Source: Plicaturopsis crispa FD-325 SS-3
Taxonomy: Eukaryota > Basidiomycota > Agaricomycetes > Amylocorticiales > Amylocorticiaceae
Length of the DNA stretch: 64,000 bases
Assembly (NCBI GenBank): GCA_000827205.1
Contig: KN832554.1
Coordinates: 2,042,955-2,106,954, forward strand
Direction of reading: 5' to 3'
In this document: piece after piece, positions 7,119-49,182 of the stretch
Position numbering within the stretch: the stretch's first letter is position 1
How the letters are laid out: each line of letters opens with the position of its first letter
Translations under genes and position numbers: made by a program
The notes under the pieces: model-generated
Database searches by the model: none
Told to the model about the DNA's origin: nothing
Seen by the model: only the letters and a program-made list of their open reading frames with translations

Positions 7119-8163
7119 GACTGATAGAAACAAGAAAGTAAGTAGGAAATAGAGCGCTGAGAGCAGAGTCCTTACTTATAGCAGGGTGGAAGTCGAGGAG
7201 AAATAGACCGGTCGGCCGAAACAAGATGCGTCATCGGCTTTCGGGTTTACCATTTCCCTCGCCGCTCATTGGCTGGCTGCCTCCCTTCTCGACTCAACTC
7301 AACGCCAGGCGTCGTCGGCTTCATATGTCCGGGACATCTCCGAATGTTTTACTGACTCCAGCGATGGCCGCGGATGCCTCGTGATAGGCCCCCGGAAGCT
7401 CCTGCAGAGGTAGGCGAACTTTTTCCCGAAATTCGACCCTCAAATCCGCAATTTTTTGGGCCCAAAACCTCCCCAAATCCGCTATCTGGGACTGGGTTAT
7501 GCAGGAGAAAATCACGTGATGCAGCTATTTTTTGCCAAAAACTTGATTTTTTTCGTAGTTGTCCCTCCATAATCGGCTTAAATTTGGCTGAAAGCGAAAA
7601 CGGTATCGACCCAAGCCCATCGTTGCCAAATTACAGCTTGCCGACCTTGCATTAGATCCAAAGTGCTGTCCCAGAGTTTCCTAAAATCCGCTATATGGGA
7701 CAGGGATTCGACCTCGAAGGGTCTAAAATCCGCTATACCAGGACATAGATTTTCGATTTTTCGCTCCCTCAAATCCGCTATTTCGTCGCCTACCTCTGCA
7801 GGAGCTTCCGGGGGCCTCTCGTGATTCACAATTTGAACCGACTGTCTAGTGCAATGCCGGCGACGGACTTATAAGTGAGAAAAAGCAGAAAGGTGAGGGA
7901 GATGTCTTGGCTTGTAGGACTCGAATACGATACTGGGTCGCAGAGTGCTCATCGCAGAGCGTTGTGACGCGAGAGCGTCTCGACTCTCGAGCCGAATTTG
8001 ATTTTCAAAACTGAGCGAGCATACAGGGGCTATCATTCCCAAATAGGCCAATATTGGAACTTTACAGTACCAAGCCTCCGCTTTCCCACGCTCAGCACCG
8101 TCCATCGACGCCACCACCTTTGCGAAATCCGTACAGCAAGCTCAGCCCTCAGTCGACGTCGCC
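7119..8163. other. Divergent intergenic region LEU1/RPL29 with a transposon insertion
   Basis: About 1 kb separates the two start codons, and 432 bp of this is the element at 7386-7817. That leaves about 270 bp of native sequence on the LEU1 side and about 340 bp on the RPL29 side. No reliable TATA box was identified. No gene is apparent. Confidence 0.6.
7386..7817. mobile_element. Element A: hAT-like MITE, 432 bp
   Basis: Perfect 32-bp terminal inverted repeats lie at 7386-7417 and 7786-7817, starting AGGCCCCCGGAAGCTCC. Immediate flanks are an 8-bp target duplication, CTCGTGAT, at 7378-7385 and 7818-7825. The interior has no plausible coding sequence. It carries five same-strand copies of AAATCCGCTAT: 7442 (with one mismatch), 7475, 7684, 7726 and 7771. 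Three copies are followed by a GGGAC or AGGAC box. An 8-bp duplication fitting nTnnnnAn is typical of hAT transposons. P-type elements also make 8-bp duplications and are the main alternative. Perfect repeats and duplication suggest a young insertion. Confidence 0.93.
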
Positions 8164-8603
8164 ATGGCCAAATCCAAGAAGTGCGTGCATCCAGCCGTCC
8201 TACCGCGCAGGCGTACTGATTTCATTGTCTGCGTGCAGCCATACCAATCACAACCAGAGCTACAAGGCGCACAGGAATGGTCTCAGGAAGCCTGTGTCCA
8301 AGGGAAAGACACGGTCGTTGAAGGGTGTACGTCCGCTCGTTCTGTGTATCTGGTAGAACCATTGCTGATTTGGGTTCTGGCTTTAAAAAGGTCGATGCTA
8401 AGGTCGGTTGGATAGAACGAAGCGTTTGATAGGACATACGACTGATAATGCATCTACAGTTCCGCCGTAATGCCCGCCACGCACACGCCGGATCGGTATG
8501 CCCCCACTCCCATTGCAGCTGCCTCGGTGCACTTTTCTGACATTCTACGCATATACAGTACAAAGCGCGCCAGGAGCAAAAGGCGGCAGCCGCCGCATCG
8601 TGA
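8164..8603 (+). CDS. RPL29: 60S ribosomal protein L29 (eL29)
   Basis: A small, very basic cytosolic large-subunit ribosomal protein of about 65 residues, spread over five short exons. Spliced pieces read MAKSKNHTNHNQSYKAHRNG, then LRKPVSKGKTRSLKG, VDAK, FRRNARHAHAGS and YKARQEQKAAAAAS. The first intron begins after AAGAA at about 8181 and restores NHTNHNQ, the family hallmark. A four-codon micro-exon (VDAK, near 8391-8402) is needed to join KG to FRRNARHA. The high intron number is usual for basidiomycete ribosomal protein genes. Expression should be strong and constitutive. Confidence 0.95.
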
Positions 8604-8881
8604 TCGCCCCCTTCCTTGACTCGCACACGATATCGCCGGAGGGAGGGTGATTCACGCCAGACTCGGAGCGCGGAGGGACGAATGTTGTTGATTCCACCAT
8701 GCTATGTAACATGCAGCCATGCTTTCGCTTAGGGCACCCCAAAATCTTATAATCGACGCCAAAAACACAAGATAAACATCGTGATTGTGATACTGTACAT
8801 TTTGCCAGACTACAACATTTGAGCTTACAGACGGTTGCGCTTTGACTTCTGCAATGATTGACCCGGTGTTTCGCACTTCAC

Positions 8882-11094
8882 TCACCCTCGTGTCTGGTGG
8901 AGGTCTTTCGCGTCGCTCGCCAGCTTGGCCCGCAACCTCGCGGCCTGAAAAAATCTCGTTTCAGAACGGCAGAAAGAAATGGAACAGCAAAAGAGATATC
9001 TCACAGCAGCGTCTTCAGGCGGCAGAGCACCCTTCGCCATATTATGTTTGCCCGCCCGTAATTTCCTCTGGTTGATATTCGTGGGCAACTTATTGGTCGC
9101 AGGATTCGGGACGAGCAGCGCCTTGCATTCTTCGTCCGTTGGTATATACCCCTCCAGAAGAGAGAAGAATTTATGCCGAAGCACGGCCTTGATGCGCTCG
9201 AATGCATGGCTCGAGTACCAGCCGTCTCTTTCCTACGACATACGCACAACCGTGTAAGTTAGAAGCAGAGGGACACGCAAGGCGGCACGTACATGGCAGG
9301 TATCGCGCAGGTCGTCTTCCTCCTCGATCATCTCTTTGAGCATCGGGTCGTGGATATCGCACAGCTGGAATGCCGCCGTCTCTTTCGCAACGGTCATGCC
9401 ATCGAATATATGCGACTGTCTACCCACGAAGCATCAGCCCCTGCGAGGTCCACAGGTGCAAACGTATATGAACGCACTTTCGCTCCACGCCTTCGCGCTC
9501 CCCTGTGATCCCCAGGCCGCGCCCTTCGTGCCGGCGGGTGGCGACAGAAGGCCGTTCTATCTGGTGATTCGCGTTGCGGAAATACAGCCGCTGATAGCTG
9601 TTGCGAAATGTATGAGTGTTCGCTTTGCGGTAAGGGCATGGGGCGATTGGACGTACAACCGCGCGTTGACATCTGCGCGTGGATCATAGCTGAAACGAAC
9701 GAGCGTGTCACGCCAAGGGCCGTCCTGGAATACATAGCATACGAGCGGAAGAAGGACCTTGGAGCTGAATGGTATTGTTAAAAGGGGACGCGAGAAGAAG
9801 TGGGGGCATTCTTACTTGTGGATTTCCCTGGCCTCGAGAGCCGTAAACTGATTAAACAGGGACAGTCGCGTCCATATTGCACGCTCGTCCATCCGCTAAG
9901 AGGGTATCACAAAAACGTCGTCAGACCGTATAACTAATCATTATGAGAAGGAGTTTTCACTTGTTGTAACTTTTTCAACAGGACCTGATCCACCTGCTGA
10001 CGGACTTCCTCCACGTTCCGTGGGGGTTTGTCGGGGACCTATCAAACATGTAAAATAACATTGAAATTACGTTGAAGAAAAGGAATAGTACCGTAACGTC
10101 TGTGAACATGATCGACGCTGGCCCATACCCCTTCCACCGCATCCGATTGATTAGTCGTTTCTTCTCTTCGCCCGTTTCTTCGTTCACTACGGTCGAAACC
10201 ATGGATGCGGCATTCGCCTTGAAACTGTACGGGCGCAGCAATAAGCGATTGGTCGCATTGCCGAGATATGCGCATGGGGACGCACTTGTACGTCTGGGGC
10301 ATGCTTTGCCTCGAGAATACCGGCGGTGGGAAGAGCCGCAGGTTGCTACGCATAGTTTGGGCCTCATCGCTGCCTTGCGACTGCGATTCTTGGATTAGTT
10401 GGGGATCTATTTCGGCGGGTACGTTGTTTGTAGGAATTAGGTAGTCCTCCTTCTCGTCGGGTATGCTGTACTGCCTGATGCCTTGGACTGCATGGCCAAT
10501 AGTCGCGTTCAGTGGTGATTCGAGCAGAGCGGCAAATCGGTCCCACCGTCCATGTTATCCATAGATAATCGAAGTTTGGAGACGGGGTCATTCATGTCTG
10601 GCTGGTACTGATAATCCACCATGCCTGCGATACCAAAGACTTATGAGCATCATGAACACAATGGTACTCGTTATCTGTCGCATACCGCGAAATCGCGCCG
10701 TTTTCGGGATGACGCCAACTGCCTCAGCCGTATATTCACCGACCATCCCGTCGCCCCCGTCCGCTTCCGCATTCAAGCGGCGTCTCTTGCGCTTCACGAC
10801 TTTCAGCAAGATATTGTTCGTCGGGACCACGTCCCCAGGGGCCGGGTGTGCGAACGGATTTTCGGGTCGAAGACTCAGCTCGAGCAGCGTTTCTGTGCGG
10901 GGGGCATTGCGCCTGAATGCGGACTCGAGGCTGGCGTGTCCGCCGAGTGCGCGTACGGCAAGGGGTACGGAGGACGGCTGGACGTAGCCAGGATATTCGA
11001 CGGAGTAGAAATGGGCAGATGGTATTTCGTGTTCGGGAGCAGCAGGTGGCTGTTTGGAACTTGAAGACGATGGGCCCGGTACGGGGGAGCTCAT
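8882..11094 (-). CDS. TFC1: RNA polymerase III transcription factor TFIIIC subunit 5 (Tfc1/GTF3C5-like)
   Basis: A subunit of TFIIIC, which binds the A-box of tRNA gene promoters to recruit TFIIIB and Pol III. The start at 11094 gives MSSPVPGPSSSSSKQPP. The conserved N-terminal dimerisation region follows (YSVEYPGYVQPSSVPLAVRA, LGGHASLESAF, LELSLRPENPFAHP). Middle exons give LLLRPYSFKANA and the basic RLINRMRWKGYGPASIMFTD. Later exons continue through RDTLVRFSYDPRADVNAR to AFERIKAVLRHKFFSLLEGY and LPTNINQRKLRAGKHN. About eight introns are implied. I end the gene at the TGA at 8882-8884 after ALRLRAKLASDAKDLHQTRG-like sequence. A further splice there (GGGTGAGT) cannot be excluded. Confidence 0.88.
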
Positions 11095-11503
11095 GGTGGA
11101 TGCAGCAGCCGCGCTTTTTACGAAGTCACGATGGAGGATGTCTACTATCACGTGGATCGTATTTTCGTGCCGCGTATTTTACCACAAATGTATCGCCATT
11201 TCGTGCAAGGTAAATACATGGAAAACACAGGAAGAGGCAAGGGGCACTAGGAAAACATGTAAAAGAGGTCGATTGAGGATGACCGGGCCAGGTAGCAGCT
11301 CAAAAATACGGAGCAGAATTATTGCTCCTAGACATACAGGTGAACCAAGCTAAAGCAGGTATTAGAACGAGAACGAGTGGCGATAGTCCGTAAACAGGAC
11401 GGTGGAATCTTAGAGACGGTGCCGGTTCGACTGCTGTTGTCCATATTAAAAGCAACGTGAAATAGCTCTCCCGGGAAGTAAAGATACAAAAAACATGCAG
11501 CAC

Positions 11504-12041
11504 CTATTTGCCGCCCTTTGGCTTGAAGCCGCCCAAACTAATAATCTCCTGCATTGCCTCCTACATTTACTGTATAAGTCACACCTCCCGCATGCGTGAT
11601 ACGAGGTACGCACCTGATCTATTCCAGCCCTCTTCAATTCCTGCGCAACTAGTGTTGCGCCTGCTCTGAACTCCGAGTTGGCAGCGAGTTTGATCATCTG
11701 CATGGTCGATAAATGCTTTCCGGATTGTATGTCGACACCTGTGGGGCGTAATGAGGTTAGAGCTCCACCAACGAGTGCAGAGGTACAAACGCACCATGTT
11801 CTTGCAGGAGCTTCATGAAACTTTGCAGCGCAGCGAAGGCTTCTGGTTTATCCTTCAGCTGCTTGTAAAGTTTCGTATCCCGGTATCTGTCCAGTATCAA
11901 CGCGGACGGGTCCTCTGCTTCTGAAGCCTGACTCCGCGGTGTGAACGAGAAATTCCGTCGAAATGCGGCGCGCGAGGTATATTGTCGCTGGTAATTAGAC
12001 CGAAGCTGTGTGACTATGAGGAGACGGCGGCATGACTGCAT
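11504..12041 (-). CDS. Small mitochondrial-type conserved hypothetical protein
   Basis: Three exons splice to roughly 130 residues. The N-terminus (MQSCRRLLIVTQLRSNYQRQ and the next 15 residues) is Arg/Ser/Tyr-rich without acids, like a mitochondrial targeting peptide. The body contains LYKQLKDKPEAFAALQSF and LLQEHGVDIQSGKHLSTMQ, then KLAANSEFRAGATLVAQELK. It ends EAMQEIISLGGFKPKGGK. Splice joins at EHG/VD and GIDQ/EAM both keep frame. I do not recognise a named family. The gene is back to back with PSF3, about 200 bp between start codons. Confidence 0.75.
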
Positions 12042-12239
12042 TTTCGTGGGCGTCGTCTACGAGGAGCGTTGGCGTTGAGAGTGCTAGAGATGAAATGAGA
12101 GCAGTCTGACTGGTGGGTGCGAGTAGATATAATTCCGAGCCGGTGGTGGTGACGGCGCGCTTCGGCAAACCGCCACGTGGTCCTGGCCCCGGATGTCCTT
12201 CCGCTGCTTTCTGCCATTTGCGGCGCCGTCGCGTCGAGG

Positions 12240-13158
12240 ATGGACAACGACTACTATTCCATCGATGCAATTTTAGCAGAAAATCAGGCAAGTCTACCGC
12301 GTCATGAATAAATAGACGAAGCTAAAACTGCCAGTACAGAAAATACAATGCACCTTCAAGATCGATGTCCCCGACATGGGCCACCTCGGCGGCGGCGATG
12401 AACGCGACGTACGCCTGTTTACGCGTTTTTCTCTCCATACGCACGGCGGTTGACACTGTTGATCCTGTAGATCAAAGCCTTGAGCAAAATCCCTATACCG
12501 CTATGGCTATCCTACATCATCCTCTATTCGTGAGCCCCCTAAACCGTGTATTCGTGACGCTCATGCCAACAATACACCATTTATGATAGGGACTGGGCGG
12601 ACTTCAGTGTCCCTACCCCGTTTACCAACCGTGTTCGGAACGCATTGAAAGCAGAGGCGAAGAGCGTGAAGCTTTCACAGTTGGTGGGCGCGGGTGGGTC
12701 GTGGTATGGGTTCGGCAAAACGGTCATGGATCTGTGAGTCGCACAGTGCATCATACCATGTATACCACTGACGACAGGGCTACAGTCTTAGCGACGAACA
12801 ATCCGAGGAGTTATCAAAGGTTCTGACAAAGGTGAACATATGTATATTCCTCGCGGCGTAGCTACATCCCACTGACTCTGCCCGCGAAACCAGGCCTTCC
12901 GCGACCGTCTCATCGAGGTCATAGACCAAGCGCAGCATTTCGCCGCCCTCGGCCCTTCCTCCTCGTCTTCCACTGGACTAGACTCCGCCCAGCAGTTCAG
13001 AGAGGGACTGGACACCACCGAACGCGAACGTGAGTACCATCAACCACTTCCGCGTAGTACCCCCAAGTAAAGGTCACGGTGTAGTATTCGCGATGGCGCA
13101 GGAGAGTTCGAAGAGGACGAAGGTGTGGTATGAGGCAACTGACAAAGGGAAGAGATGA
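12240..13158 (+). CDS. PSF3: GINS complex subunit Psf3
   Basis: A component of the four-subunit GINS complex that, with Cdc45 and Mcm2-7, forms the replicative CMG helicase. Exon 1 gives MDNDYYSIDAILAENQ and splices into KIQCTFKIDVPDMGHLGGG, the conserved N-terminus of Psf3. Later exons give IKALSKIPIPLWLSYIIL, DWADFSVPTPFTNRVRNAL, GAGGSWYGFGKTVMDL, the acidic-helical LSDEQSEELSKVLTKAFRDR and the last exon LFAMAQESSKRTKVWYEATD. The stop is at 13156-13158. Total is about 200 residues and fits the family. About seven introns were placed by frame and GT-AG ends. Confidence 0.93.
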
Positions 13159-13259
13159 GTCGACATGTAACAACATCGGTGCTGGATGGCACTCACTGGC
13201 AGTGCCATGCATGATTCTCCGTCCACTGGGTATCCTGAATCCCTATACCGCCTCCAGCC

Positions 13260-13608
13260 TCATTGTTCTTTCTTCGTCTCTTCCTGTTGTACGACCGGTG
13301 CTTTCCGTAGCTCACTCACGAACCTATTCGTTGTTGTATAACCACATCAATTTACCACCCCACTTCCGGTGACAGACAATTTGGACTGACCACTTGACGC
13401 TTGCCCATAACGCGAGTTCGATAGCGATCAGCGCGAAGAAATGCAGATTCCCCCAAGTGAGTGCGAGAAGGGAGAGGAGCACGAGCAGGAGGAAGGCGAA
13501 TACGCCGTCGACGATGAGTAGAAACGTGGGGTTTAGGGATGACCCTGGGGTGAGTATGTCCGCGATGCCTGATAGTTGCGATGGGTCTGGGTCACTTGTA
13601 GCCGCCAT
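13260..13608 (-). CDS. PKR1: ER membrane V-ATPase assembly factor Pkr1-like
   Basis: A small two-TM ER protein needed in yeast for assembly of the V-ATPase Vo sector. Exon 1 (MAATSDPDPSQLSGIADILT onward) has the family's PGSSLNPTFLLIVDGVF motif, then two hydrophobic segments separated by TWGNLHFF, ending ELALWASVKW. The open frame continues into an intron beginning GTCAGT at about 13390. Splicing to a second exon gives KWFVSELRKAPVVQQEETKK and then EQ and stop, with the stop at 13260-13262. This restores the known W-F-x-x-E-L arrangement and a charged tail, so the longer unspliced reading is rejected. It is convergent with PSF3. Confidence 0.9.
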
Positions 13609-13881
13609 TGAATAAAACCCTATGAACCAGAGTAGACAGGATAGAAATGAGGTGAGGGTTGTGGTGAAAGATGCCGACGTGTCAGACGCGACTCGGACGC
13701 GACAACAAATCTCTGACCAGATCTGACGCGACGTTTATTGGGCGCGCCATGGTACATCTTTGCATACACCGACAGCGATGATGCAATATGACTAGAGATA
13801 AAATCGAGTACTTGTGTACAGTGCAAGAAAACAGCCGTTCAACATCGCCCTCAATCCCATTCGAGCACCGTAGTCGGTCTT

Positions 13882-14949
13882 TCACTTGCCCCCCTCGCCG
13901 GAAGAGAAACCTCGGACCACTGCCAGAGTATGTCGTTTTCCGAATCCGTCTGGTTTGAGCGGCGCAACCCAAGTCGCCTTCTGTGTAGAGAGTCCGGATT
14001 CGCAGCTTCGTCCAGCGATGTTGGTACTACCGCCGCAATCCTTGTTAGCCGAGATGAATGAACGCCCTGTCCTACTCACAGTCCTCGAATGTCCCGACCC
14101 ACTCGAAGTACTTGGCCGCGAGGCTGCGCACCTGTGTCGGCCCTGAGAAAGAATTGTCGTGCTGCAGAGCATTGTCTTCGTCTTCAACGGACGTAGGTGG
14201 CTTCAGCACCGGAAGCTTCAATTCGTGAAGCTGCGAATCGAATACCGCAAGAGCTGTGCCGCTAAGGATTGAGGGCCACGACGTTACTGAGGAATCGTGT
14301 GTAGACACCGGAGCCTGAGGAAACGCCATTTACCCGGATCCAGCAGAGAGAAGGGACACAGCTGCAAGGGTGCGTGCAATGAGGGACAGATACGAGGACA
14401 CGGTAGGTCTGAGGTAGAGGCAGAGGTTATACACGCCCTGTGTGACGCACGGGCATAGGATGGACGCACGGAGTATCGGACTTGACGAGATAGGAAGAGG
14501 GTTCGTGCAGAACGGTCAGGGCAGGTGCCCGCTCCAGCACGGTCTTCATATTATCAGACGTGTAATCTTCGGGGGTTTGGGAGACCCTAAGCATCGAAAG
14601 GAGTAGGGCTAGATGCGCTGCGGAGGGCGGGTAGCTGTGATGCAAACGTACGCGTTGATAAGAACCGCACACAGCGTAGGAGTAAAGGGACATACAAGAT
14701 GTCTATCTGGGATAGATCGCGCGCTGTTTTCCCGGTTCTTGCACACGCTTCGAGCCAGTCATCGTTATAGTCAACCAAGGCGCTTGCGAGTGCTCGACGC
14801 GAAGGGCTGAGTATGATAGCCTTGGAGTCAGCGCGAGAGGTATGGGAGAGACATAGATGTATTGGCGCGGATGGGGGAAAGGATCCCTCAAATAAAATGG
14901 ACTTGAAAGCAGGCAAAGGACGTGCAGGTGGGGGAAATACAGAAGACAT
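13882..14949 (-). CDS. Conserved hypothetical protein, multi-exon
   Basis: Start at 14949 (MSSVFPPPARPLPAFKSILF). The first exon joins through a GTATGT donor at about 14698 to FYPPSAAHLALLLSMLRVSQ. Further exons give YTSDNMKTVLERAPALTVLH, VSSYLSLIARTLAAVSLLSA, ALAVFDSQLHELKLPVLKPP and LAAKYFEWVGTFED. The last exon ends HTLAVVRGFSSGEGGK. Roughly 250-280 residues. Alternating hydrophobic strands and helices with IILSPSRRALASAL suggest an alpha/beta fold without a clear Walker A motif. I do not recognise a family. It is divergent from the MLKL-like gene. Confidence 0.7.
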
Positions 14950-28504: not shown

Positions 28505-30257
28505 CGTCCAGTAGAACCGCGAGCCGGTGTCGGTGCCGAGTCTTAGTGGACACGTGTAATTTCCCGACATAAGCGCCACAACGGTACCAGGTTTGCTTCC
28601 GCTGCTTGGCAGAGCTCTATATGTCGCTTTTATGGACGGGCGGTAAGGAGACGAGGAGCAAGGGGAGAGCGGAGATGGTGGTGGTAATGAAGAGAGAGCT
28701 CGCAAAGGTGATTGGTTTTCTGTCTTCACTTATATTTAGGCCTTACGCCGACTCGACTTGCAGCGTGCACGGTCCGTATGACCACGACATAACCTGTTCT
28801 GTCTGTCTGCAGGCATTTCTTCGACTTGCTCTCCATGCAATGAGCTTGCCCTACTAGGCTTGCCATTGAAATCAGTGGATACTAATTTGAAAACAACGAC
28901 ATCTGTGAGATTTCATGTCCCAGGGACCATTAGTAGTACTTTCACTGACTTTCCTTATGCACTCCAGCCATACTGCTTCATGCACAGGACAGGAATCGTT
29001 CACAACTTCGCTTGACAGCAGTGTATGTACGCTGGCTGGTCCGGACTTCCACCCCTCCCCAAGGACGATTTGGAAAATGCGGAACCGACTCGGGGAAACT
29101 CGAACCACAGACGTGGGCATTTTCAACATGCAGCATGCAAGCAGACCCTCTCGCTCACTTACGGGGTACTTTCACGGCTAGTACGACTTGTGTACCAAAC
29201 ACGGCTGCGCTTTCGAGGTATTTCTGCTGCGTTTGCTTCCATGGTCTATGTATCGTGCCAATGGCTCATATGGCTCTTACTCCTCTTCCATCCAGTACGG
29301 ATACCTCGCTTTTTACGCGCGCATCGTTCACCCCGTTTCTCTAGCCTGGTTCCACGGCGTTGCATGCCGGTGTGAAAGCTGGGAACGGTACCTCAAATTG
29401 ACCACAGCAAAGGAACCCCCGAAGCGATGACTACAAACGAATGTTCAAGGCGATGGCAGCGATCGTGTGCTCGAAGCCAGGATTGCGAACTCATGTAACT
29501 CTTCACGAAGACTTCCCGCGGGTCTTGAGCTGCCTCCCCCCGGACGCTGGCTTCGAGAACAAGAACGTCACCTCGAGAAGAAGAATGACGTTGACGTCGA
29601 TGGTATTTACAGTGAATATCTGTGGCATCGTATTCTATTACTCATGGACCGCGAGGCTCGGGACGGTATACGCACCCTGGTCAAGATGAGCATGCAACCG
29701 GGCGTCGGTCTGCATCGGTCGCCTGACTCCAAGCCAGGGACCGTTCCTCTCCGGGGCCGATGCACCGATAGCAATATCGCAAGGTGCCTTCCCCAGATTA
29801 CCCCGCATCCCCACATTCCGCTCATCCTTCCATCACCGTGGTACTCACGCGATCCATTTTCCATTGGACGACTCTGTATATGTGCCTGGACGGTCTTCCT
29901 GGCAGGGAAGGATGCCCACCCTGCAAGTGGCCCGTGTGTGTTTATGCAAAGTAGGACCACAAATCCAAAACTTGAATGTGCTCAAGATCTCCGTACATGG
30001 TCTACTTGCTGTTTGACCTATCTGTCCGCTTGCCTGTACCGTACATCTACTCGCATCGTTGGCCACTTCAAAGCTTCACGGTCGACGTCGAGCTCCCGGA
30101 CGGACCGCGATCAACGCGTGAAGCCATCATCGTGGTGGGGCTTCGCAAGATCCCCCCGCATCGAAGCTCCAATATCCAGGATCGATATTGCATGCTCACC
30201 TGATCGAAGATGCTAAACATAGCGGTCACGACGCACCTCGACGTATACTGTCATTAC

Positions 30258-30744
30258 AGGACCCCCGACAACCACCCAAAATGTGTGTTTTCAATCCGGA
30301 TGCGAAACGGCGCGTAGCGCCGGAGGCCTCTTCAAATTCGGATGCCAAATGGCCAAATTTTGGGCCAAGGTTTGTGCAAATTTCCGGATGCAAGACGCGG
30401 CGAGGCGCAGGTCTGTGCAAAATCCGGATGCGAGATTTCTCGAGATCAGGCCGTGGTGAGGCTCCGACACCTGCAAGACCGTCGTTTAGGGACAAAATAT
30501 CATTTTCTGCACACTCGAGCGTCTCCTCGTACCATTCAGCTCTGCTGGCGCAGTAGCGATTTTTTTTACGATTTTCTCGGGATTTTAGCGATTTTTGATG
30601 TCTGTGCCACTTTCCGGATACAAAACGCGTTCAGCTGATGTATAACCGATTTCCGGATGCCAACGGCGTCCTGGAGGCAGCACCCCATCCGGATGTCGAC
30701 CCCTTCAGAAAAAACATACATTTTGGGGGGTTGTCGGGGGTCCT
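30258..30744. mobile_element. Element B: hAT-like MITE, 487 bp
   Basis: Terminal inverted repeats of about 34 bp (30258-30291 and 30711-30744) start AGGACCCCCGACAACC and differ at two positions. The flanking 8-bp duplication is GTCATTAC at 30250-30257 and 30745-30752. The interior is non-coding. It holds seven same-strand copies of a TTCCGGATGC-like word, near 30293, 30336, 30381, 30422, 30612, 30651 and 30687. Four are on the left side and three on the right. Several copies sit in a longer unit that starts GTCTGTGC and ends ACGCG. The right end appears again at 31893-32014 because of the assembly duplication. Confidence 0.92.
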
Positions 30745-30915
30745 GTCATTACTGTCAGCACGATTGCAGTGAAGGTGACCGGGTCCGGTGGGCGTTTGTG
30801 CGTATCTATCTCCGTCCCTGCATTGACCATTTCCACTGTATGCTGAGTCTGTGCCATAGAAGCATCAGCAATAGGCAACAAAACGCTCCTGGTTGTTCTG
30901 CACTCTACACGTCCA
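30623..30915. repeat. Left copy of a 293-bp sequence duplicated across the gap
   Basis: Identical base for base to 31893-32185. This copy ends exactly where the Ns begin. Best read as the end of the left contig. Confidence 0.97.
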
Positions 30916-31892
30916 NNNNNNNNNNNNNNNNNNNNNNNNNNNNNNNNNNNNNNNNNNNNNNNNNNNNNNNNNNNNNNNNNNNNNNNNNNNNNNNNNNNNN
31001 NNNNNNNNNNNNNNNNNNNNNNNNNNNNNNNNNNNNNNNNNNNNNNNNNNNNNNNNNNNNNNNNNNNNNNNNNNNNNNNNNNNNNNNNNNNNNNNNNNNN
31101 NNNNNNNNNNNNNNNNNNNNNNNNNNNNNNNNNNNNNNNNNNNNNNNNNNNNNNNNNNNNNNNNNNNNNNNNNNNNNNNNNNNNNNNNNNNNNNNNNNNN
31201 NNNNNNNNNNNNNNNNNNNNNNNNNNNNNNNNNNNNNNNNNNNNNNNNNNNNNNNNNNNNNNNNNNNNNNNNNNNNNNNNNNNNNNNNNNNNNNNNNNNN
31301 NNNNNNNNNNNNNNNNNNNNNNNNNNNNNNNNNNNNNNNNNNNNNNNNNNNNNNNNNNNNNNNNNNNNNNNNNNNNNNNNNNNNNNNNNNNNNNNNNNNN
31401 NNNNNNNNNNNNNNNNNNNNNNNNNNNNNNNNNNNNNNNNNNNNNNNNNNNNNNNNNNNNNNNNNNNNNNNNNNNNNNNNNNNNNNNNNNNNNNNNNNNN
31501 NNNNNNNNNNNNNNNNNNNNNNNNNNNNNNNNNNNNNNNNNNNNNNNNNNNNNNNNNNNNNNNNNNNNNNNNNNNNNNNNNNNNNNNNNNNNNNNNNNNN
31601 NNNNNNNNNNNNNNNNNNNNNNNNNNNNNNNNNNNNNNNNNNNNNNNNNNNNNNNNNNNNNNNNNNNNNNNNNNNNNNNNNNNNNNNNNNNNNNNNNNNN
31701 NNNNNNNNNNNNNNNNNNNNNNNNNNNNNNNNNNNNNNNNNNNNNNNNNNNNNNNNNNNNNNNNNNNNNNNNNNNNNNNNNNNNNNNNNNNNNNNNNNNN
31801 NNNNNNNNNNNNNNNNNNNNNNNNNNNNNNNNNNNNNNNNNNNNNNNNNNNNNNNNNNNNNNNNNNNNNNNNNNNNNNNNNNNNNNNNNNNN
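30916..31892. other. Assembly gap (977 N)
   Basis: A run of 977 unknown bases. Because both edges are the same 293-bp sequence, the gap is probably not real sequence but an unrecognised contig overlap. Reading frames running through the Ns are meaningless. Confidence 0.98.
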
Positions 31893-32185
31893 AAACGCGT
31901 TCAGCTGATGTATAACCGATTTCCGGATGCCAACGGCGTCCTGGAGGCAGCACCCCATCCGGATGTCGACCCCTTCAGAAAAAACATACATTTTGGGGGG
32001 TTGTCGGGGGTCCTGTCATTACTGTCAGCACGATTGCAGTGAAGGTGACCGGGTCCGGTGGGCGTTTGTGCGTATCTATCTCCGTCCCTGCATTGACCAT
32101 TTCCACTGTATGCTGAGTCTGTGCCATAGAAGCATCAGCAATAGGCAACAAAACGCTCCTGGTTGTTCTGCACTCTACACGTCCA
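31893..32185. repeat. Right copy of the 293-bp duplicated sequence
   Basis: Identical to 30623-30915 and begins at the first base after the Ns. It contains a second copy of the right half of element B (to 32014) and its target duplication (32015-32022). Confidence 0.97.
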
Positions 32186-38854: not shown

Positions 38855-38937
38855 TCTGGACGAAGAGGTGAAGAGTGTTCGAAAGAGAGGTATCGTTGCT
38901 TGGATGAACGATGCCAACCAGCCATGGATCCAACGCA

Positions 38938-38946
38938 CTTATATAT
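38938..38946 (-). promoter_or_regulatory. TATA box of the small secreted protein gene
   Basis: On the minus strand ATATATAAG lies about 84 bp before the start codon at 38854, which supports that start. Confidence 0.5.
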
Positions 38947-41585
38947 GTTTTGTATTGGCTCTAGGCCATGCAGGATCTGTCCATGCCGCAGATCAAGGTT
39001 ACCCAGTGCGAGAGGATTTTCCACACGGAGACGTGCGGTGGGCAAGAGAGTCGGTGGGTACGTGAAGACCGGTATGCTCTTTGGAGTTGGCCGTCTATGA
39101 TACCAACGTGCGGCGGTGCCTGCGCAGTTGATGCATTTGGCGCTCGGTCCTGACAGAAAGCATTGAGTATCCCATCGACGGCTCGAATGGAGAAACTTAC
39201 AAACCAGTATGCGAATTGCCGTCTGGGCATGGTAGACCGAGGAGCCACTGTCATACAGCAAAGGCGCGGACTTGTACCATGTAACAGTGCTATGACGGAC
39301 AATGAGTAGAGGTGCATTAGACAGGAGGATATACATATGCACCAGGCCCAAGCCTGCCCAATCGAAGCTGTACGGATTGCTGAGTCGACAATACTAGGCT
39401 ACCAGGTGTGAGTAAGTATTACAGTCGAGAACATGCCTAGACAGGCGCGATCTACATCCATAATTAGGTCTGCGACAATCATTGACAACGAGAGGTGCGT
39501 ACCAATGCAGGTTTCTTGGAGTTGTGGCATAACGAAAATCAAATTCGCACCAGGATTTAGGCGATGTATACATGGGGGTACATCTCTGAGCGCTCAGCGC
39601 AGATTTTCCGGGAGTACCTCTAGACGACGAAGGGAACGTGGGTGTCTGAGTAGAGACGGTGATCATGCAAGAAGTGGGCGCGTGCACTCAAAGCACCGTG
39701 CAGCGAGGCGGTCTTCTCCACGGCATCCCAACCGAATACTGAGGGTGCCGCCTTTCATTATGGGGAGAGCCGGGAGAAGATCGTGTACCGCATGGCAAGG
39801 GACAACGACAGGGCGGGTCGTGCTCTCCGATGATTCTGTTACAGTAATTTCGTCACGAGAGCCAGTCCCTGTACCTATAAGGGATGAGGGTATGAGGGAG
39901 CGCACGTTTCATGAGTACGAGCATGGGAAAACGAGGGGTGAAAGCACTTACTGTACGGGGAACGGCGAACAAGGCTTAAGCATATAGCTACTTGAACGTC
40001 GTACTGTTATGTCCGAGGACAGACGGGGCCGAAGGTCAGCACAACGTCGGTGCGTCTATATTAAATTTGGGATTTGAGCTGTGTCCGAGACTCTGAATAC
40101 ACGATAAGTCTGTATTACCTTGGAAAGAACAGGCGATTTGTTTGTCACTCATCACTTGCCTGTCGAAAACATGTAGAAAAGATGCGCGCTCGCCGGCAGC
40201 AGGTACACGCATCGGCAACTACAGAGAGGGAGCAAGTGGAAAACCATGTTAGCTTACTAAGAGACCATAGATATCATGCGACGTACTCTATCCTAGACAT
40301 ACACCAGTCGTACCTCCATTCTACGCGTGCGGCGTACCTTGTCTGGAGATCGAGACGCTTATCAATACAATTGGAATGTATCCTTTTCGACAGATGCTCC
40401 TGATCCTGCTTATGGTCCAGGAAAAACGGAGGATGACTTTGACCTTTAGACCGCCTGTTGCACCGACGATGCTCCGACACGATGATATGGTGGGTCACGG
40501 TGCATCGTGGAACTACGGGCCACCCCATTCCAAGAAGCGTCCAAAGGTCACGTAGCAGGCTAGACAGCGCGCTCAAACAAAGTTGAATGGAGTTAGACCG
40601 AAATTGGAACTCTTTGAAGCGCTCTCAGGGTGCCCTGGCGGCCAACCAAGGATCGCCGATGTAAATGTGAGATTGACCGCGCTCTGGAGAATGGCAGCAT
40701 AGAGGTAGTAGTAGTACGCGATGAGATGCGTTAAACATTTGGGAAAAATGCAGCGAAATGGCAAGCGTTCCGAAGACGTTCTTGAAGGTCAAGTTGAACG
40801 AACGACTGAGAACAGGACCTATGACAGTCCCAATGGAGGTCACATACTGAAAAAAATAATCGAATATAATTTGTCCGGACTTTGAACCGCACGTGCCGAA
40901 GATTTTGTCCGGACTATGTATCCGACCTCGATGGAAAAATGGCCTTGTCCGGACTACGTATCAGACATCTAAAAATCGAATAAAATCGCGAAAAATCCCA
41001 GAATATTGTCGTAGGCGGTTTAAGCACATATTAGTGCCCTACTCAGGTCAAATATGCATTTGAGTGGTCTACCCCAAAGTGCGGAGAGCTCGGGAGGAAA
41101 CACAACGAGTATCTACGGATTTATGTGTAGCGGCGAGTAGGACATTGAGAAATGATAAGAACAGGGTAAATACGGAGGTACAAAGTACCAATAGGACCCA
41201 AATTGGCCAGCTTTCCATACAAAAGTCGATAGACCACGAGCCCAGCCGCCGACCGGTCGTATATGGAGGCGGACAATTTCCGTGTAAGGAGGTTGTCCGG
41301 ACAAATATCAGACCTCTGTGGCGCCAATTTGGCTTGTCCGGACTAAATATCCGACCTGTTGTCAGATTTTGGCGATTTGTCCGGACAAATATCCAACCTT
41401 CGGGGCTCAAAATCAAAAATTTGTCCGGACTCCGTATGTGACCTCCATTGGGACTATCATAGGTCCTCTGAGAACTCGGGGTACAGAATAGGGGCTACGT
41501 TAAACTAAAAAGGATCTACCCCTGACTCAATGGAAATTATCAAGCTGGACACTTTTCTCAAGACGGCGGTCATAAACACAAAAAG
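38947..41585. other. Gene-poor region containing element D
   Basis: No gene could be modelled with confidence. The plus frame at 39433-39987 (184 codons) and the minus piece at 39663-39905 look partly protein-like, but no start, splice pattern or family supports them. A decayed gene or rapidly evolving lineage-specific gene is possible. From 40814 to 41467 the stretch is a transposon (element D). Confidence 0.45.
40814..41467. mobile_element. Element D: hAT-like MITE, 654 bp
   Basis: Terminal inverted repeats of 34 bp (40814-40847 and 41434-41467) start AGGACCTATG and differ at one base. The flanking 8-bp duplication is CTGAGAAC at 40806-40813 and 41468-41475. Seven same-strand copies of TTGTCCGGAC occur at 40871, 40905, 40945, 41293, 41334, 41377 and 41421. 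Three lie near the left end and four near the right, with about 340 bp between the two blocks. Several copies are followed by TATCCGACC or a variant. No coding sequence is inside. The right end lies 118 bp before the RPC40 start codon. Confidence 0.94.
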
Positions 41586-42892: not shown

Positions 42893-43106
42893 GTGTCAGC
42901 ACCGTATGTATTTCTTTCCATGTGACAGCATTATTCTGTACAGAATATTCACGACCTTGCTATCCCGATGTTTGACATGTCTAAATGTTTGCGTCCGCGC
43001 CGGCGCGTCGAGACTAGCTGAATTACAGGACCTTCCATACCTGGTCATGCCGTCGCCGGACAACTCCGACCAAGAATGACGACAGGGATCGCGACTGCAT
43101 CTACTC

Positions 43107-43777
43107 ATGGTCTGCACTGCTGCGCTCCTTCGCCTCACACGACAACGACACCCACTACGATATATCGCTAAAAATTACACTACTATGTCTGAATCTACCC
43201 CTTCCCTGCAAGCGTGGGCCCAAACGCACCTCTCAGCGTTATACGAGTCCTCCGACCCGAATGCCGCCTTCGAGGCCGCATTCTCTCCGTCCGCACAAAT
43301 TTACCTTAACCACGAAGCCTTGGGTCGTCCTGATTTGAAGGAGCGCGTAGTGGGTCGCGTTGGCGCCGCCGCCAACGGTGCCTCCGTCAAGTGGGAGAAT
43401 ATCATTGCTGTGCCGAAGGAGAAGGGCGATGAGAATGTACGTGCTCGTCTATTCAGGGGGACAACTCCTAATCCTTGTTCTACCGGTAGGCGGGAATCGT
43501 TGCAGGCTTCCTGGTCGTTACACGTTCTCTGAGATTTCGCATCCGTGCGGCACCTGCACAGACTCAGACGTTCATTACCATCAGCGCTAAGTTCGTTTAT
43601 AATATTGTGCCCTGTGTTATTCTCCAAACTTACACGTGCCCTCGTTACAGGATAGAACAAGATCCGAGTGTAGCTCCGGATGCTTCTGGCGACCGTCGCA
43701 GAATCGTGCACCTTTTTGAAACGGCGCTGGACCAGGTGCCGCAAATTCACTTGCAGACGCCGAGGGAATCGACATGA
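43107..43777 (+). CDS. NTF2-like small protein, possibly mitochondrial
   Basis: Starting at 43107 gives an Arg-rich, acid-free leader (MVCTAALLRLTRQRHPLRYI), so mitochondrial import is possible. An alternative start at 43185 (MSESTPSLQAWAQTHLSALY) would be cytosolic. The body has YESSDPNAAFEAAFSPSAQI, YLNHEALGRPDLKERVVGRV and VKWENIIAVPKEKGDEN. Splicing then gives AGIVAGFLVVTRSLRFRIRA and FITISAKIEQDPSVAPDASG. It ends IHLQTPREST with TGA at 43775-43777. The arrangement of helices then strands resembles an NTF2/SnoaL fold. That is inference from pattern only. Confidence 0.75.
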
Positions 43778-44023
43778 TAAATCACGCGCGAAGGTCGTGC
43801 TTGTCAAAATGAATGTCATCGGACGTTGACTTGTAGGGTGGGTACACCTGGGGTATTATACATCGCTGTGTATAGTGCATTCGATGTACACATATGTCTT
43901 CACGAAGCAATGCGCTCGGCGTGCGTGTTCCAAGTCTCAAGCGTTGACTCAGTCGTGCATACTCGCGATCGTGATGATAAAATACTAGAAGTCCATATCG
44001 CTAGGAACAAAGCGCACCCCACA

Positions 44024-45063
44024 TCAGACCTGCCCAGCGTTGGCGTACGACTGATCTTTTGCAGCCCCGCCCTCTTCATACAATCCCGAGGCACTACGAC
44101 TCCCATTATCCGCCATCCCATACACTTCGCTCCGTTGCGCATCAGCAATCTCCTTCTTCGTCGGCACGAGCCCCGGCGCCGTAAACATGGCCACGGAAAG
44201 GAACTCGGTGACGCCGACCAGGGGGTACCATAGGGCTTCACGGTACTGCTCTGCCGTGTTGTTGGCAGTGCCAGTGAAGAAGGCCTCACGCATGAGGAGG
44301 AGGACGGAGACGGAGAAGAGGATGTAGAAGCCATATCTCGAGCCTATGGGCGCATCCCAGCGGCGTGTCGAGCGGCCATCCTTAAGCTCCGCATGCACAA
44401 GGAACGACGCCTCCGTGATGAGGAGGACGGAGAGGGCGAGGAAGATGTACACGCTGGCTTTCCGGAGTGTCGTTCCGAGCGCGATGGAGGACGGGGTGCT
44501 GTTACTGGAGGTAGCCTCGATGACACCGACGATCCCGAGCACGACGGCTGCTGTAGCAGATATATGGAAGAGGAACTTGCTTCGTGTTACGCGCGACAAG
44601 AGGCCAAACGATACGAGGGATTCCGTCATTTTTTGTCTGCCGATAGAAATAATTAGCATCTAGTGATATATTTTCGAGTCAGAGGTACTCACCGATCGAG
44701 AACAACGGAGTAAGCAGAATAGATAAGGCCTAAGAAACCGAAGTTGAAGACGACTTGGTAGACGATGAACAGCGTGAGGTTGTGTGCTGCCGACTCCGAT
44801 TTGATCAACAGCACTCGGAGGATAAACGCGACGGTTCTGACTGCGACGGCGTCAGTGCATTATCCATTTCCGTCTACGAACCGGAACTCACTTGAACAGA
44901 ACATTTGCAGCAAGAAGAACACAAAACTTCGCCGCCGGATAGTTTGGAAGAGGTAGAACCCGCTCAGTGGAGCGTAGAGGACCACGAACACAACGGCTGC
45001 AGCGAGGGAGTGTATTCCGAAATACGCGGCATAGTCTGGGGTCGTAAACGTGGTAGAGGACAT
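44024..45063 (-). CDS. Multi-pass membrane protein (DUF7702-like)
   Basis: Start at 45063 (MSSTTFTTPDYAAYFGIHSL). Seven hydrophobic segments can be counted over the spliced product, including LAAAVVFVVLYAPLSGFYLF, FIVYQVVFNFGFLGLIYSAY, FLFHISATAAVVLGIVGVIE, VYIFLALSVLLITEASFLVH and FYILFSVSVLLLMREAFF. The last is followed by the loop TANNTAEQYREALWYPLVGV. The cytoplasmic tail (VPTKKEIADAQRSEVYGMAD onward) is polar. The layout is that of fungal seven-TM proteins of the RTA1/DUF7702 kind. About 330 residues, three introns. Function unknown. Confidence 0.82.
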
Positions 45064-46586
45064 CGTGCAGTGAGTGGGGTGGGGGCGTGATGTCAATTTC
45101 TACTGACCTTAAATCGAAAAATCATGCTGCCGTTTTAAAGGACTGCTAGCCCTGTCGCATTATATGGCATGAAAGCTTCTTGATAGTCCCGAGCACTGCA
45201 TAAGTGCAGCCGCAGCCACACCAAGATCATTTTAGACTCCGCGACGGCTGTGCAACCGTAGACAGCAGCCGTGCACTCCAGTGAGTGACCTTGAACGTGC
45301 AAGGACACGGGTGCTATCCCTACATATAGGGCGGTATAAAAGAGCAAAGTGTTTGCCATGCTGTGCATTGCTATACTGTGACTCTATTGGATTAATCCAC
45401 CAATGTCCAATGCCATGCCTGGTTAGGTTCAGAACGCACCGATTAGCCGACTTTGGGCAAGGAGGTACGACCATCCCAGCCTTTGAAGCCGCGTCTCTGC
45501 CTGCAGGTTCAGGTACGTACACATTCGCCCCACAAACTAGGCTGAAGGACACGACGGAGCTGTTATTCAAAACGTAGGTCTTCGAGAATGAAAATAATTG
45601 GTACCTTCAGCCGCGACTCGTAGCCGTCTGTTACGAGCAACGAGAACCTTGTGATCATTCCGAGTGCATGTTAGATTAGGATGACAAGTTCCATGTATTT
45701 TTGCGTACAAGCTGTCTCGAGTCGGACTACTTATAAGCAGAAGTACTGTCTGTCACAGTTCCTGTATACGTAGTAACAGGTCTATGGCAGGGCCAACTCG
45801 CCTCATATGGAAATCCACCAGGCCACCCGTTATGGTACCCCGTGGGTACTTCGGGAACCGGTCACAGCGTGCGCCGATCCTCTATACTTTGGACTTACAG
45901 GACCTGAGACGAGTTAATGCTCTAGTACTCAAGTTTGAAGTTTGACCCTCAGTTACCACACACTGTGAGTCTGTACATTGTATATACGCCCCCGCCATTC
46001 AACGAAATATTAACGAAATATTCACTGGCAGGCAGCTAGTGTTGCAGTGTGACGTCAATAATAACAGGAAGTAGAGAAATAGGTATGTACAGTCTACTCA
46101 TGGGTGTTAGGATAGGCACATCTGGTGTAAGACATCTGCATATGGCCATGCAGACATGGGGGCGGCGGGCGGGGCACCGATTTTTGAAAATCAGACTCAT
46201 GCGCATGAAGATGAATGAATTAATGTTCACCGGCACCGGCACCGCCCTTTGTGGCACTTTGTACAACATATACATAGTGTTTTTTTGGACATTGCGACCC
46301 CACATATACGTATACAGGTGTGCCCGAAGGGCCGTGTCTATGCAGAGGTAGGATCGAGGACAACTCCGCCTCCAGCCTGTTGCACAATAGGGGCCAACGT
46401 TCAGAAAAAGCAATCAAGGCCCCTATGTTAAGTATCGCAATCTCTTGGCGACATTTGACTTGCGCGCCTGCTTTGAATCTGCACTTGTATCAGATCCAGT
46501 CAGGACATACACCTGCCTCGCTTCACTGTACGAGTACTGTACGCCGTCTGAATATTGAAACACAAGGAAGCAGAGGCCGTACGACA
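45064..46586. other. Intergenic region, no gene supported
   Basis: About 1.5 kb without a convincing gene. A minus-strand piece at 45440-45570 (SSVVSFSLVCGANVYVPEPA) reads like protein but has no start or partner exon, so it may be a fragment. No inverted terminal repeats were found. Confidence 0.4.
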
Positions 46587-49182
46587 ATGGCAGAGCCGCA
46601 GCTAAAGGCTGAGATCACCCGCCTCACCGCCGAGCTCAACAGCACCCTCGACGTGCGCAAGCAGCTCCGCGCAGAAGCAAGCGCCCTTCGCGAGGAAAAC
46701 ACCCAACTACACAAATGCACCGGAGAGCTCTCTGATGAGGTCTATGACCTCAAGCGCCATATGGCAGCGAAGACGGCTGAGGCCGAGGAGCTGCGGGAGG
46801 CAAACGCTGGGCTGCAGAGGGTCATCGACGGCCTGCGTCAGGAGTCTGCGGAATTGAATAAAATGATGCGAGAGATGGAGAAGGGTAAAGGGAAGGCGGT
46901 AAGTACATCCAGAATCAGCGTTAGGGGTGGTGCTTGACAATTCTCCTGAACCTCCTCGCTGGGTCGACCATAGCCAAACATCTGACGAGAACGGAAAATT
47001 CATTGTAAGATTCACAAACCATGTTGAATATGCACACCGGCGGCTGATAAAGTTCATTCTTTTTCAGTGGCGTAAAATTCCAGTTCCCGTAGTCCAGGTT
47101 CCGCCAGCAGCGTATGAAATCAAAGCCGCTCCCCAAAAATCTGCACCCAGACCTTCTAAGCGTGCACGCCCAGTAGTTTCCAGCGACTCAGAAATAGAAG
47201 TCATTGAGGTCCGGCATCGTCATGTCGCCTCATCTGTGGCACGAGCCATAAACAGCGCTCACAGTAGGAACAGTATCACTACTCCGTCGAACGCTGTGGT
47301 GTGTTACAAGATCACCTTCCTCTCGCCTCACGTCTCCTGATTATTATCACTCATTTCAGGCTGGACCATCTCGTATTGGCTTATCCAAGATCACCACAAA
47401 ATCTCGCACAACCACAACCACGACGCAGCCATCTACCTCATCGGTAGTACCGGAGGACACTTACACAGGCACGGAGACAGCGAATGGCGATTTGCAGGAT
47501 ACCTTTAGCTCTAGAAGCAGCAGTCCGCTTACCTCACTGCCATCTGATAGTAGTGACGATGAAGTCGAGGCTGCACGTCTGGTCGGGACATCTTCTGTAG
47601 AGCCCAGGGAATCACCGGACCGAAAGGTCTGTTTCATTGTTTTTGTACGCTACTCCACGCTCACCCTGCTCTCGCAGCCCAAGAGGGAGAAAAAGGAAGA
47701 GGAGACCGTAATTCGTCTCCCCACTCCTGTCGCCGCGGAACTTCTCGAGTCCATTCCAGCATACACAATCACGCCCGCGGCAGTTGCCACCCACATCTCC
47801 CGCCGCTGTGCCTCGGCGACCTACGGCGGCGGATACCACCCGCTCTACGTCAACCAAGCCAAGGTCGCACGGTTTGCCTCGAAGGCCGCGTGGCCAAATC
47901 CCGACCTGAACCCGTGCGCGCCGACGGTGCCCGGGGCGCCGGGCCTGATGTTCACGAGCCGCGACGACTGCCTCGGCGTGCACCTGCGCCTCTTCGCACG
48001 GCTGGAGAAGGAAACGAAGTCGAAGGACGAGCCGACGGTCTGGGAGTACCTGGGCGAGTACATCCTGGAGGTCATGCGTGCGCTGACACCCGCGGAATTC
48101 GCAGGTCAAGCTGAAAAGGCGAGTTTCATTGGCAATATGTACATGCCTGGATTGTCGTCTTACGGCCCTAGTTTTCTTTAGGTGCGTGTAGCATGGGCTC
48201 AAAGAATCATAGAGTGCAAGCAGCACGTCGCATATCGTAGTATATGCGCGCGCGTATATCTGCGGAAAACCCATCGCGATGTTACAGAACACGCTGTACA
48301 TCGCGAGATAACGCGGCCGGATACGCACAAGTGCGGGTTTGGCGCTGTGCTAGGGCTGGACATAGAGGATGTACTAGGCGCGTTCGCCCGAGGTGAAGAG
48401 GTGCGTTTAATATTTTCACCGCTGACACGTACTCTCAGGACCCCCGACTATTAGGCTAAATGCCGTTTGAATCATCCGGGCAAAATTTGCACTTTTCGCC
48501 CGAAGGCCATATGCCATCCGGGCAAAAATCTTGCCCTCTGCGAGGGAGGCCATGTCGCGTCCGGGCAAAATTTTTGCAGGGGGAAGGGGCGGCGCCGCAG
48601 GCGCCGCCACCAAAATTTTGGGCTTATGCACGTGATTTTTCGGGTGGGTAAAGCGCCCGAAAAGGCAATAAGGCCAGTTGCCATCCGGGCAAAATGGGAT
48701 CCGTCCCTCGCAAATCATCCGGGCAAAAAAAATCAGCTTTTGCGATTTTCATAACGGCATTTACCCTAATATTCGGGGGTCCTGTACTCTCCAACTGATT
48801 CTCCGTGCTTTGATAGACGATTAATATCATCAGCATGAGATGCGTCGGCTACGACCACGCCTTTGCACATGATTGCCGGGTCGTCTATCCAAGATACGTG
48901 GCTGAGAAGGCGAGAGAGCGGGCATCGAAAGCGGACAGCAAGAAAGCGGACGCAGCGAAAAGGAAAGCGTCTAGCTTGGCGGAACGGAAGGCAACGTCGA
49001 TTCGCCTCCGTCCATTGATGCAGGAGGACGCGGAGGAGAGCGCCCCGGATCCGATGGACATCGATGACACGCCTGAACGTCTTTTTGCACCGGCGCCATC
49101 GTGGCGGGCGCAAGAACGCAGGGCTGCACGGGCGGCATGGTACAGAGACGACGACGATTTCGATCCCGCATCGCCGGGATGA
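46587..49182 (+). CDS. DUF6697-type protein with coiled-coil N-terminus; transposon in an intron
   Basis: Start MAEPQLKAEITRLTAELNST. Exon 1 is a coiled coil of about 100 residues. Exons then encode VVLDNSPEPPRWVDHSQTSD, disordered Ser/Thr-rich tracts (SSDSEIEVIE, SSPLTSLPSDSSDDEVEAAR), and the folded C-terminal domain. That domain contains YTITPAAVATHISRRCASAT, GGGYHPLYVNQAKVARFASK, GLMFTSRDDCLGVHLRLFAR, VWEYLGEYILEVMRALTPAE, VLGLDIEDVLGAFARGEE and HEMRCVGYDHAFAHDCRVVY. This order matches basidiomycete DUF6697 proteins, whose function is unknown. The intron 48401-48833 holds element C; its acceptor restores EE/HEMRCVGYD. The exon from 48182 departs from the expected domain and its splicing is the least certain part. 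Confidence 0.78.
48437..48783. mobile_element. Element C: hAT-like MITE, 347 bp, inside an intron
   Basis: Terminal inverted repeats of 31 bp (48437-48467 and 48753-48783) start AGGACCCCCGA and differ at two positions. The flanking 8-bp duplication is GTACTCTC at 48429-48436 and 48784-48791. Five same-strand copies of (A/G)TCCGGGCAAAA begin at 48474, 48516, 48559, 48683 and 48717. There is no coding sequence. The insertion lies wholly between the donor at 48401 and the acceptor at 48831-48833 of the DUF6697 gene, turning a short intron into 433 bp. Confidence 0.94.

Follow-up and report, generated by a model that had tools for sequence, protein, structure and literature searches.

Phased word arrays in short inverted-repeat elements of Plicaturopsis crispa and a probable link to P-like transposases

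Four non-coding elements built on one plan

The window analyzed here is a 64,000-nucleotide (64-kb) stretch of the genome of the basidiomycete Plicaturopsis crispa FD-325 SS-3 (contig KN832554.1, positions 2,042,955 to 2,106,954). It holds four short elements, A to D, and their coordinates, ends and duplications as given in an initial annotation were exact on re-check (Table 1). Each has terminal inverted repeats (TIRs) of 31–34 bp, a perfect 8-bp target site duplication (TSD) and an array of short words. The longest open reading frames (ORFs) in A–D are 49–98 amino acids, in agreement with the claim that they lack coding capacity. Being short and non-coding, with TIRs and TSDs, A–D are miniature inverted-repeat transposable elements (MITEs). 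Their interiors have little in common, as had been stated: no pair gave a BLAST match at E ≤ 0.01 when one strand was compared in a common orientation. In that orientation, which is set by word direction, B and C are reversed so that the word core reads TCCG (CCCG in C). We call the right end in this orientation the R end and the other the L end.

Each element had been credited with five to seven copies of its own word. This was exact for C (five exact copies) and D (seven), whereas A has four exact copies plus one variant. In B the proposed 10-mer TTCCGGATGC occurs exactly just twice; the real word is TCCGGATG, found at seven sites, of which one reads TTCGGATG and one TCCGGATA. That the words are private to their elements was too strong a statement, as the A 11-mer occurs 30 times in the genome and 11 of these places are not within the five A copies (the reversed-pattern control gave 6). 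Further properties had been overlooked. The words within one element point in the same direction (less strictly in B and D, which have palindromic cores), and they stand at fixed distances from the ends, often followed by a short tail.

The whole 64 kb was scanned for 8-bp duplications beside inverted ends separated by no more than 15 kb. The output was A–D, one chance-level candidate (4139–14223) and one artefact of B. An exact 293-bp duplication (30623–30915 = 31893–32185) brackets a gap of 977 Ns (30916–31892); it is likely a scaffold-join or assembly artefact and the source of the false second right end for B.

Table 1 Elements A–D in the window, with their target duplications and word sites
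Feature	Position	Strand	Details
Element A	7386..7817	+	432-bp MITE; 32-bp perfect TIR AGGCCCCCGGAAGCTCCTGCAGAGGTAGGCGA; R end = right
A target duplication CTCGTGAT	left 7378..7385, right 7818-7825	.	perfect 8 bp
A left words	7442..7485	+	TCCG at 7445 (AAATCCGCAAT variant) and 7478 (AAATCCGCTAT from 7475); offsets 59, 92
A right words AAATCCGCTAT	7684..7781	+	starts 7684, 7726, 7771; TCCG 131, 89, 44 bp from right end
Element B	30258..30744	-	487-bp MITE; TIR ~34 bp with 2 mismatches; reversed in common orientation, R end = left
B target duplication GTCATTAC	left 30250..30257, right 30745-30752	.	perfect 8 bp
B R-end words	30295..30430	-	30295, 30337 (TTCGGATG variant), 30383, 30423; 43, 85, 131, 171 bp to tip
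B L-end words	30613..30695	-	30613 (TCCGGATA), 30652, 30688; offsets 126, 87, 51
Element D	40814..41467	+	654-bp MITE; TIR AGGACCTATGA(C/T)AGTCCCAATGGAGGTCACATAC, ~34 bp with 1 mismatch
D target duplication CTGAGAAC	left 40806..40813, right 41468-41475	.	perfect 8 bp
D left words TTGTCCGGAC	40871..40954	+	40871, 40905, 40945; TCCG offsets 60, 94, 134
D right words	41293..41430	+	41293, 41334, 41377, 41421; TCCG 172, 131, 88, 44 bp to tip
Element C	48437..48783	-	347-bp MITE; TIR ~31 bp with 2 mismatches; reversed in common orientation, R end = left
C target duplication GTACTCTC	left 48429..48436, right 48784-48791	.	perfect 8 bp
C R-end words TCCGGGCAAAA	48475..48570	-	48475, 48517, 48560; when reversed 44, 86, 129 bp to tip
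C L-end words	48684..48728	-	48684, 48718; when reversed offsets 94, 60

Genome copies and their target duplications

The genome behind the counts is 33.2 Mb in 49 contigs. It has five full copies of A, and B occurs as a long form (three full copies, that in the window included, and one truncated) and as a short form of ~415 bp, five copies of which were aligned. For C, 21 places were scored, and D has seven near-full copies plus one interrupted. The initial annotation had named copies lacking the word arrays as evidence that would tell against its reading. In A, C and D the copies keep their arrays: five exact C words in 15 of 18 loci, four in two and eight across a gap in one; seven D words in 7/7 loci; and 4, 4, 4, 4 and 3 A words in the five A loci.

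Loci with tips missing, truncated or in a gap were dropped before duplications were counted (C L081 and L087, D L088, B L097, L103 and L068, and L111 of family E, described below). Of the 52 copies with both tips located, the window copies and the full-length F element described below included, 51 had a perfect TSD and all 51 TSDs differed (A 5/5, B plus short B 8/8, C 18/18, D 6/7). The single failure, D locus L091 (C4:2029806-2030541), retains both tips, but its flanks are identical at only 3 of 8 positions, which suggests recombination between copies or a rearrangement. Position 1 of the duplication is G in 26/51 (P 6e-5) and position 8 is C in 28/51 (P 4e-7). P elements favour such G...C duplications (GGCCAGAC). 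The T2 and A7 of hAT duplications were at background level in the 51 TSDs, and hAT tips are usually CAGGG-like.

Only 1.1 kb separates two C copies that have different TSDs (L076 and L085, C8:799890-801646). A D copy (L094, C13:107498-109592) is broken by two other insertions, one of which has inverted ends CTGGGAGAGCATCCTCCAGAG and is perhaps a member of a further MITE family.

Further families and a common register

Genome-wide pattern searches, each run with a control, gave further families. Three TCCGG spaced 32–47 bp apart matched 53+56 times versus 13+27 in the control, and a fifth family, E, was among the matches listed. Four of the five fetched E loci have AGGACCCATGAT tips and perfect 8-bp TSDs, and the fifth is broken by a gap; one more E place (C3:1555265-1555642) lay outside the fetched set. 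A longer E copy was looked for and none was found. The second pattern, two TCCG plus a tip at the R-end distances, matched 30+47 times versus 21+17 in the control, and recurrence among its matches gave families F (5 matches) and G (10 matches). All five F matches and five of the ten G matches were fetched as nine loci, chance-looking matches being left aside, and eight of the nine hold a short element that is tipped by AGGACCCCGG and flanked by an 8-bp TSD. Family H (L104 plus L067, C37:19462-20118) is a 657-bp distant relative of B with the TSD ACAAACCC; a transposase remnant (C37:24547-24720) lies ~4.4 kb from it. A search with the tip AGGACCCCCGA gave 33+32 matches versus 3+7 in the control, among which no autonomous copy was recognised.

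The view of A–D as a set of MITE lineages on one plan is supported. The first core lies 43 or 44 bp from the R tip in families A to H, in short B and in the full-length F element. Further R-end sites fall at 85–89, 129–132 and 170–174 bp (A, C and F are without the fourth, E and G without the third), and sites at the L tip, where present, fall at 50–61, 84–96 and 126–135 bp, the first being degenerate in full-length F. None of 2,000,000 random phasings matched the first R-end site of the eight families within 1 bp, a figure that overstates significance because B/H and D/E are partly related and the direction of the words decided how each family was oriented. A looser tail, [AG][GC]CT, follows 13–21 bp downstream of 25/59 sites versus a random expectation of 0.105 (P 2.5e-10, a value that treats the non-independent sites within a family as independent).

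Concerted word change in a B subfamily

Word sites in long B read TCCGG at 25/26, whereas those in the five short-B copies read TTCGG at 35/35, the last short-B word bearing a second change as well. In the common orientation TCCGGA has become TCCGAA, with the base after an unchanged TCCG core altered at every site. The distant relative H has TCCGGA words, from which we infer that the switch ran from the long-B to the short-B word.

Read as in the window, the change turns C into T within CCG, as a mutational artefact of CCG context (for example, methylation) rather than selection would produce. We consider such an origin quite unlikely. CCG-to-TCG was seen at 6/7 aligned word sites versus 1/11 outside (Fisher P 0.0025), in a comparison that skips the unalignable middle and in which the aligner shifted the seventh word by one base. 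A CCGG outside the words is retained in 8/9 aligned copies, and the CpG ratio of eight family sequences is 0.76–1.46.

A full-length F element and a second transposase beside a G end

The ninth F/G locus, the F match at C17:296728, has no second end nearby. The 8-mer TCTATGTC that flanks it recurs beside an inverted tip at C17:303637, giving an element of 6,910 bp. Its ends match the F MITE L116 with 88% identity over 104 bp and 80% over 92 bp. It carries one gene on a single strand, collinear with relatives from ~435 to 6582 and with probable introns, that encodes an Ulp1/C48 protease domain (E 4.5e-7), then a zinc-finger motif and then a transposase. The consensus of the zinc finger in 29 relatives is VRCSxC..W..MR..YD..R.K.HR....C, a C2HC arrangement; in full-length F an H replaces the first C. 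The R-end word array lies upstream of the gene and the other array in the element end downstream of it.

A second transposase gene, on contig C19 (C19:181104-182255), is 41% identical to that of the F element; other related transposase genes lie at C46:11571-12708, C24:244740-245219 and C2:1832809-1833936. About 1.9 kb downstream of it lies an end 82% identical to the G MITE L118 over 175 bp, which carries G words at the G-MITE offsets 61, 87, 127 and 166. The C19 gene and the G-like end would make up one element. MITE ends are thus shared with the full-length element at both ends in F and with the putative C19 element at one end in G, and as F ends and words are on one transposase element and a G end and words stand beside another transposase, two word families go with two transposases. 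The proposal that the word is replaced while the plan is kept, apparently with a transposase for each lineage, gains from these pairings and from the B-subfamily rewrite; for A–E no such partner was found.

Alternatively, a P-like transposase might cut the ends while the words serve a host protein (e.g., a Zn2Cys6 factor reading CGGA/TCCG) that sets promoter or chromatin state. The TCCG core does resemble the half-sites of fungal zinc-cluster proteins, and an array upstream of the gene suits a regulatory role. However, words stand at fixed distances from both tips, including the end downstream of the gene, they differ between families, and G MITEs have their words in common with the end near the C19 transposase. 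We regard this explanation as unlikely.

Probable assignment of the transposase to a P-like lineage

ORFs of the F element carry the motifs SCDDSK, SCDGTE and STEGCEH. The spacing of the D-D-E residues was read in the four relatives, out of nine, that matched all three motifs: the second D and the E are 228 residues apart in P0051, P0032 and P0007 and 226 in P0125, compared with 228 in P, and the first D-D interval is 107–108 versus 73 in P. The predicted fold of a relative matched the P-element transposase far better than Hermes. The P-type core fold of helix-turn-helix (HTH), RNase H and helical insertion domain is present in this model, the insertion domain being aligned by fold only. Sequence profiles searched against the PDB gave no P match, so that the P match to the PDB comes from the fold only; profile A1 returned two death-domain rows (E ~0.1), and A2 returned Ulp1/SENP and related proteases plus a few unrelated rows. 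Named relatives, whose hosts we take to be Agaricomycetes, are annotated as hypothetical proteins or as ubiquitin-like proteases.

Several results weigh against placing A–D with these enzymes, or against the enzymes being P-like. Genome searches for A–E turned up neither a transposase nor an autonomous copy; it is tips, TSDs and register that link these families to a P-like enzyme, and the C19 element is known from one end, with no TSD seen. Reading of the word by the zinc finger is putative. TCCG also occurs outside the register, and not all expected sites are present or intact. The words are partly shared: those of D, E and F have the stem TTTGTCCG and diverge after it, and ATCCGGA is common to B and H words; partial sequence is likewise shared by B and H and by D and E. 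THAP is the DNA-binding domain usual in P elements, yet no THAP match was found at E ≤ 10 in pieces of the F element nor among the families listed for 40 + 29 relatives. Pfam P-element domains were below cut-off in the members with scores seen (best values over the sets, 0.07 and 1e-4). The Foldseek match to P, made with the model of a relative, has low TM scores (0.36 of query, 0.57 of target) and an rmsd of 9.1, and the same list has Hermes in third place (1.8e-5).

That last match also speaks for the hAT origin proposed initially, in which BED fingers of hAT transposases would recognise the words as subterminal repeats. The 8-bp TSDs fit such an origin, the genome has 13 hAT dimer-domain matches, and the accessible part of a report on Hermes describes asymmetric, strictly phased subterminal repeats in hAT elements (PMC10368747). 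For F, hAT is already contradicted: the full-length element has no hAT domain match (E ≤ 10), the fold of the relative is closer to P, and the TSD motif is not nTnnnnAn. We therefore dropped the hAT-type label and consider a hAT origin of A–D very improbable.

MITEs of KDZ (Kyakuja/Dileera/Zisupton) elements are a further candidate, as the genome has 43 KDZ matches and the accessible part of one report has Cryptococcus KDZ elements making 8-bp TSDs (PMC12810828). The full-length F element has no match to the KDZ domain (PF18758), and we think a KDZ source extremely improbable. Both groups were tried as the source of the A, B/C and D tips: the 13 hAT loci and 30 of the 43 KDZ loci were fetched, and no 11-base tip was found in them at ≤1 mismatch. 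Because these loci reach ~1.5 kb on each side and KDZ elements can be ~10 kb, ends farther out would escape such a search. Four of the 30 fetched KDZ loci contain the 8-mer AGGACCCC. Neither a 10-kb KDZ region (L105) nor the weak-KDZ loci L106 and L107 showed a convincing TIR of their own with a TSD.

L106:3006-5117 and L107:2924-4939 are open frames of 703 and 671 amino acids whose DNA is ~70% alike across 1.5 kb. With just a weak KDZ match and no TIR or TSD found, they are possibly domesticated KDZ-derived genes. One of the two frames begins ~2.4 kb from full-length F, whose far end is in L106. With its 43 KDZ and 13 hAT dimer-domain matches besides P-like genes, this genome has several transposase families with known members able to produce 8-bp duplications.

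Proposed mechanism

We put at roughly 0.8 the probability that A–D are MITE members of a P-superfamily-like cut-and-paste lineage, whose phased putative transposase sites are rewritten in concert. The observations behind it are the signatures of mobility, the plan, the pairing of F with a transposase, the G end with its neighbouring transposase, the fold class of the relative and the concerted word change. The elements are best classed in a P-superfamily-like lineage that stands apart from the THAP-type P family and has MITEs with phased words replaced in concert. A literature search covering main texts and few subscription journals gave no recognisable report of these elements or of a fungal P/Ulp1 fusion.

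Transposition would be carried out by a multi-domain transposase having an Ulp1/C48 protease, a C2HC/BED-like zinc finger, a P-type HTH and an RNase H domain with an insertion domain. The zinc finger may read the family word, and several protomers could be arranged along sites ~43 bp (about four helical turns) apart. The two unequal ends would be brought together for cleavage and for insertion with an 8-bp stagger. A–E would use sister enzymes. As all sites of an element must fit one finger, a change of specificity would drag the whole array with it, and with the plan constant and the word changing, families would become orthogonal.

A broader proposal, which to us is about evenly balanced, is that in a fungal P-like clade the end plan is a conserved ruler, with unidirectional sites ~43, 86, 130 and 172 bp from one tip and 50–61, 84–96 and 126–135 bp from the other, and the recognition word is exchangeable. 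New families would arise by a zinc-finger change and concerted rewriting of the array, orthogonal systems would coexist, and the passage from B to short B would be one case.

Comparison with known systems

The enzymes resemble those of the Drosophila P element and THAP9 in their predicted HTH, RNase H and insertion domain and in the D-E spacing of 228. The accessible parts of two reports place the internal transposase sites of the P element ~41–51 and 53–63 bp from its unequal ends (PMC7776569, PMC3688188), and the 31-bp-class TIRs, 8-bp TSDs and internal sites whose spacing from the tip differs between the two ends are common to both. The register plan thus resembles that of a P element with extra sites added inward. 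Unlike P, THAP9 and Galileo, no THAP finger was found here; instead there are a C2HC/BED-like finger and an Ulp1/C48 protease. Further differences from P are arrays of 2–5 sites per end with a ~43-bp period at one end, a fungal host, AGGnCC tips, a length of 6.9 kb versus 2.9 kb and the first D-D interval (107 versus 73).

Galileo, a Drosophila member of the P superfamily, also has several transposase-binding sites inside its ends (three THAP sites; PMC3688188). In the accessible part of that report these are THAP-based and far apart (~70, 561–577 and 701–718 bp) in very long TIRs, and no register of family-specific words is described there. Hermes and other hAT elements share 8-bp TSDs and asymmetric ends, and the phased subterminal repeats of Hermes are read by zinc fingers, but transposase family and target motif differ and the AAG(T/C) sites of Hermes are uneven at the two ends (accessible part of PMC10368747). 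KDZ elements likewise have basidiomycete hosts, with 8-bp TSDs in several (accessible parts of PMC12730594 and PMC12810828); their transposase is another one, and the TIRs of Cryptococcus KDZ elements are given there as 139–241 bp.

The divergence of transposase sites into families is hard to follow with just one or two comparable sites per end. This genome holds seven families whose words differ wholly or in part and whose sites keep to a common register; for two of them a transposase lies within or next to the element, and in one all seven sites have been rewritten. How a DNA-binding domain and its array evolve together thereby becomes directly testable in a set of possibly orthogonal P-like transposases, and P-like transposases fused to an Ulp1 protease are placed in fungi.

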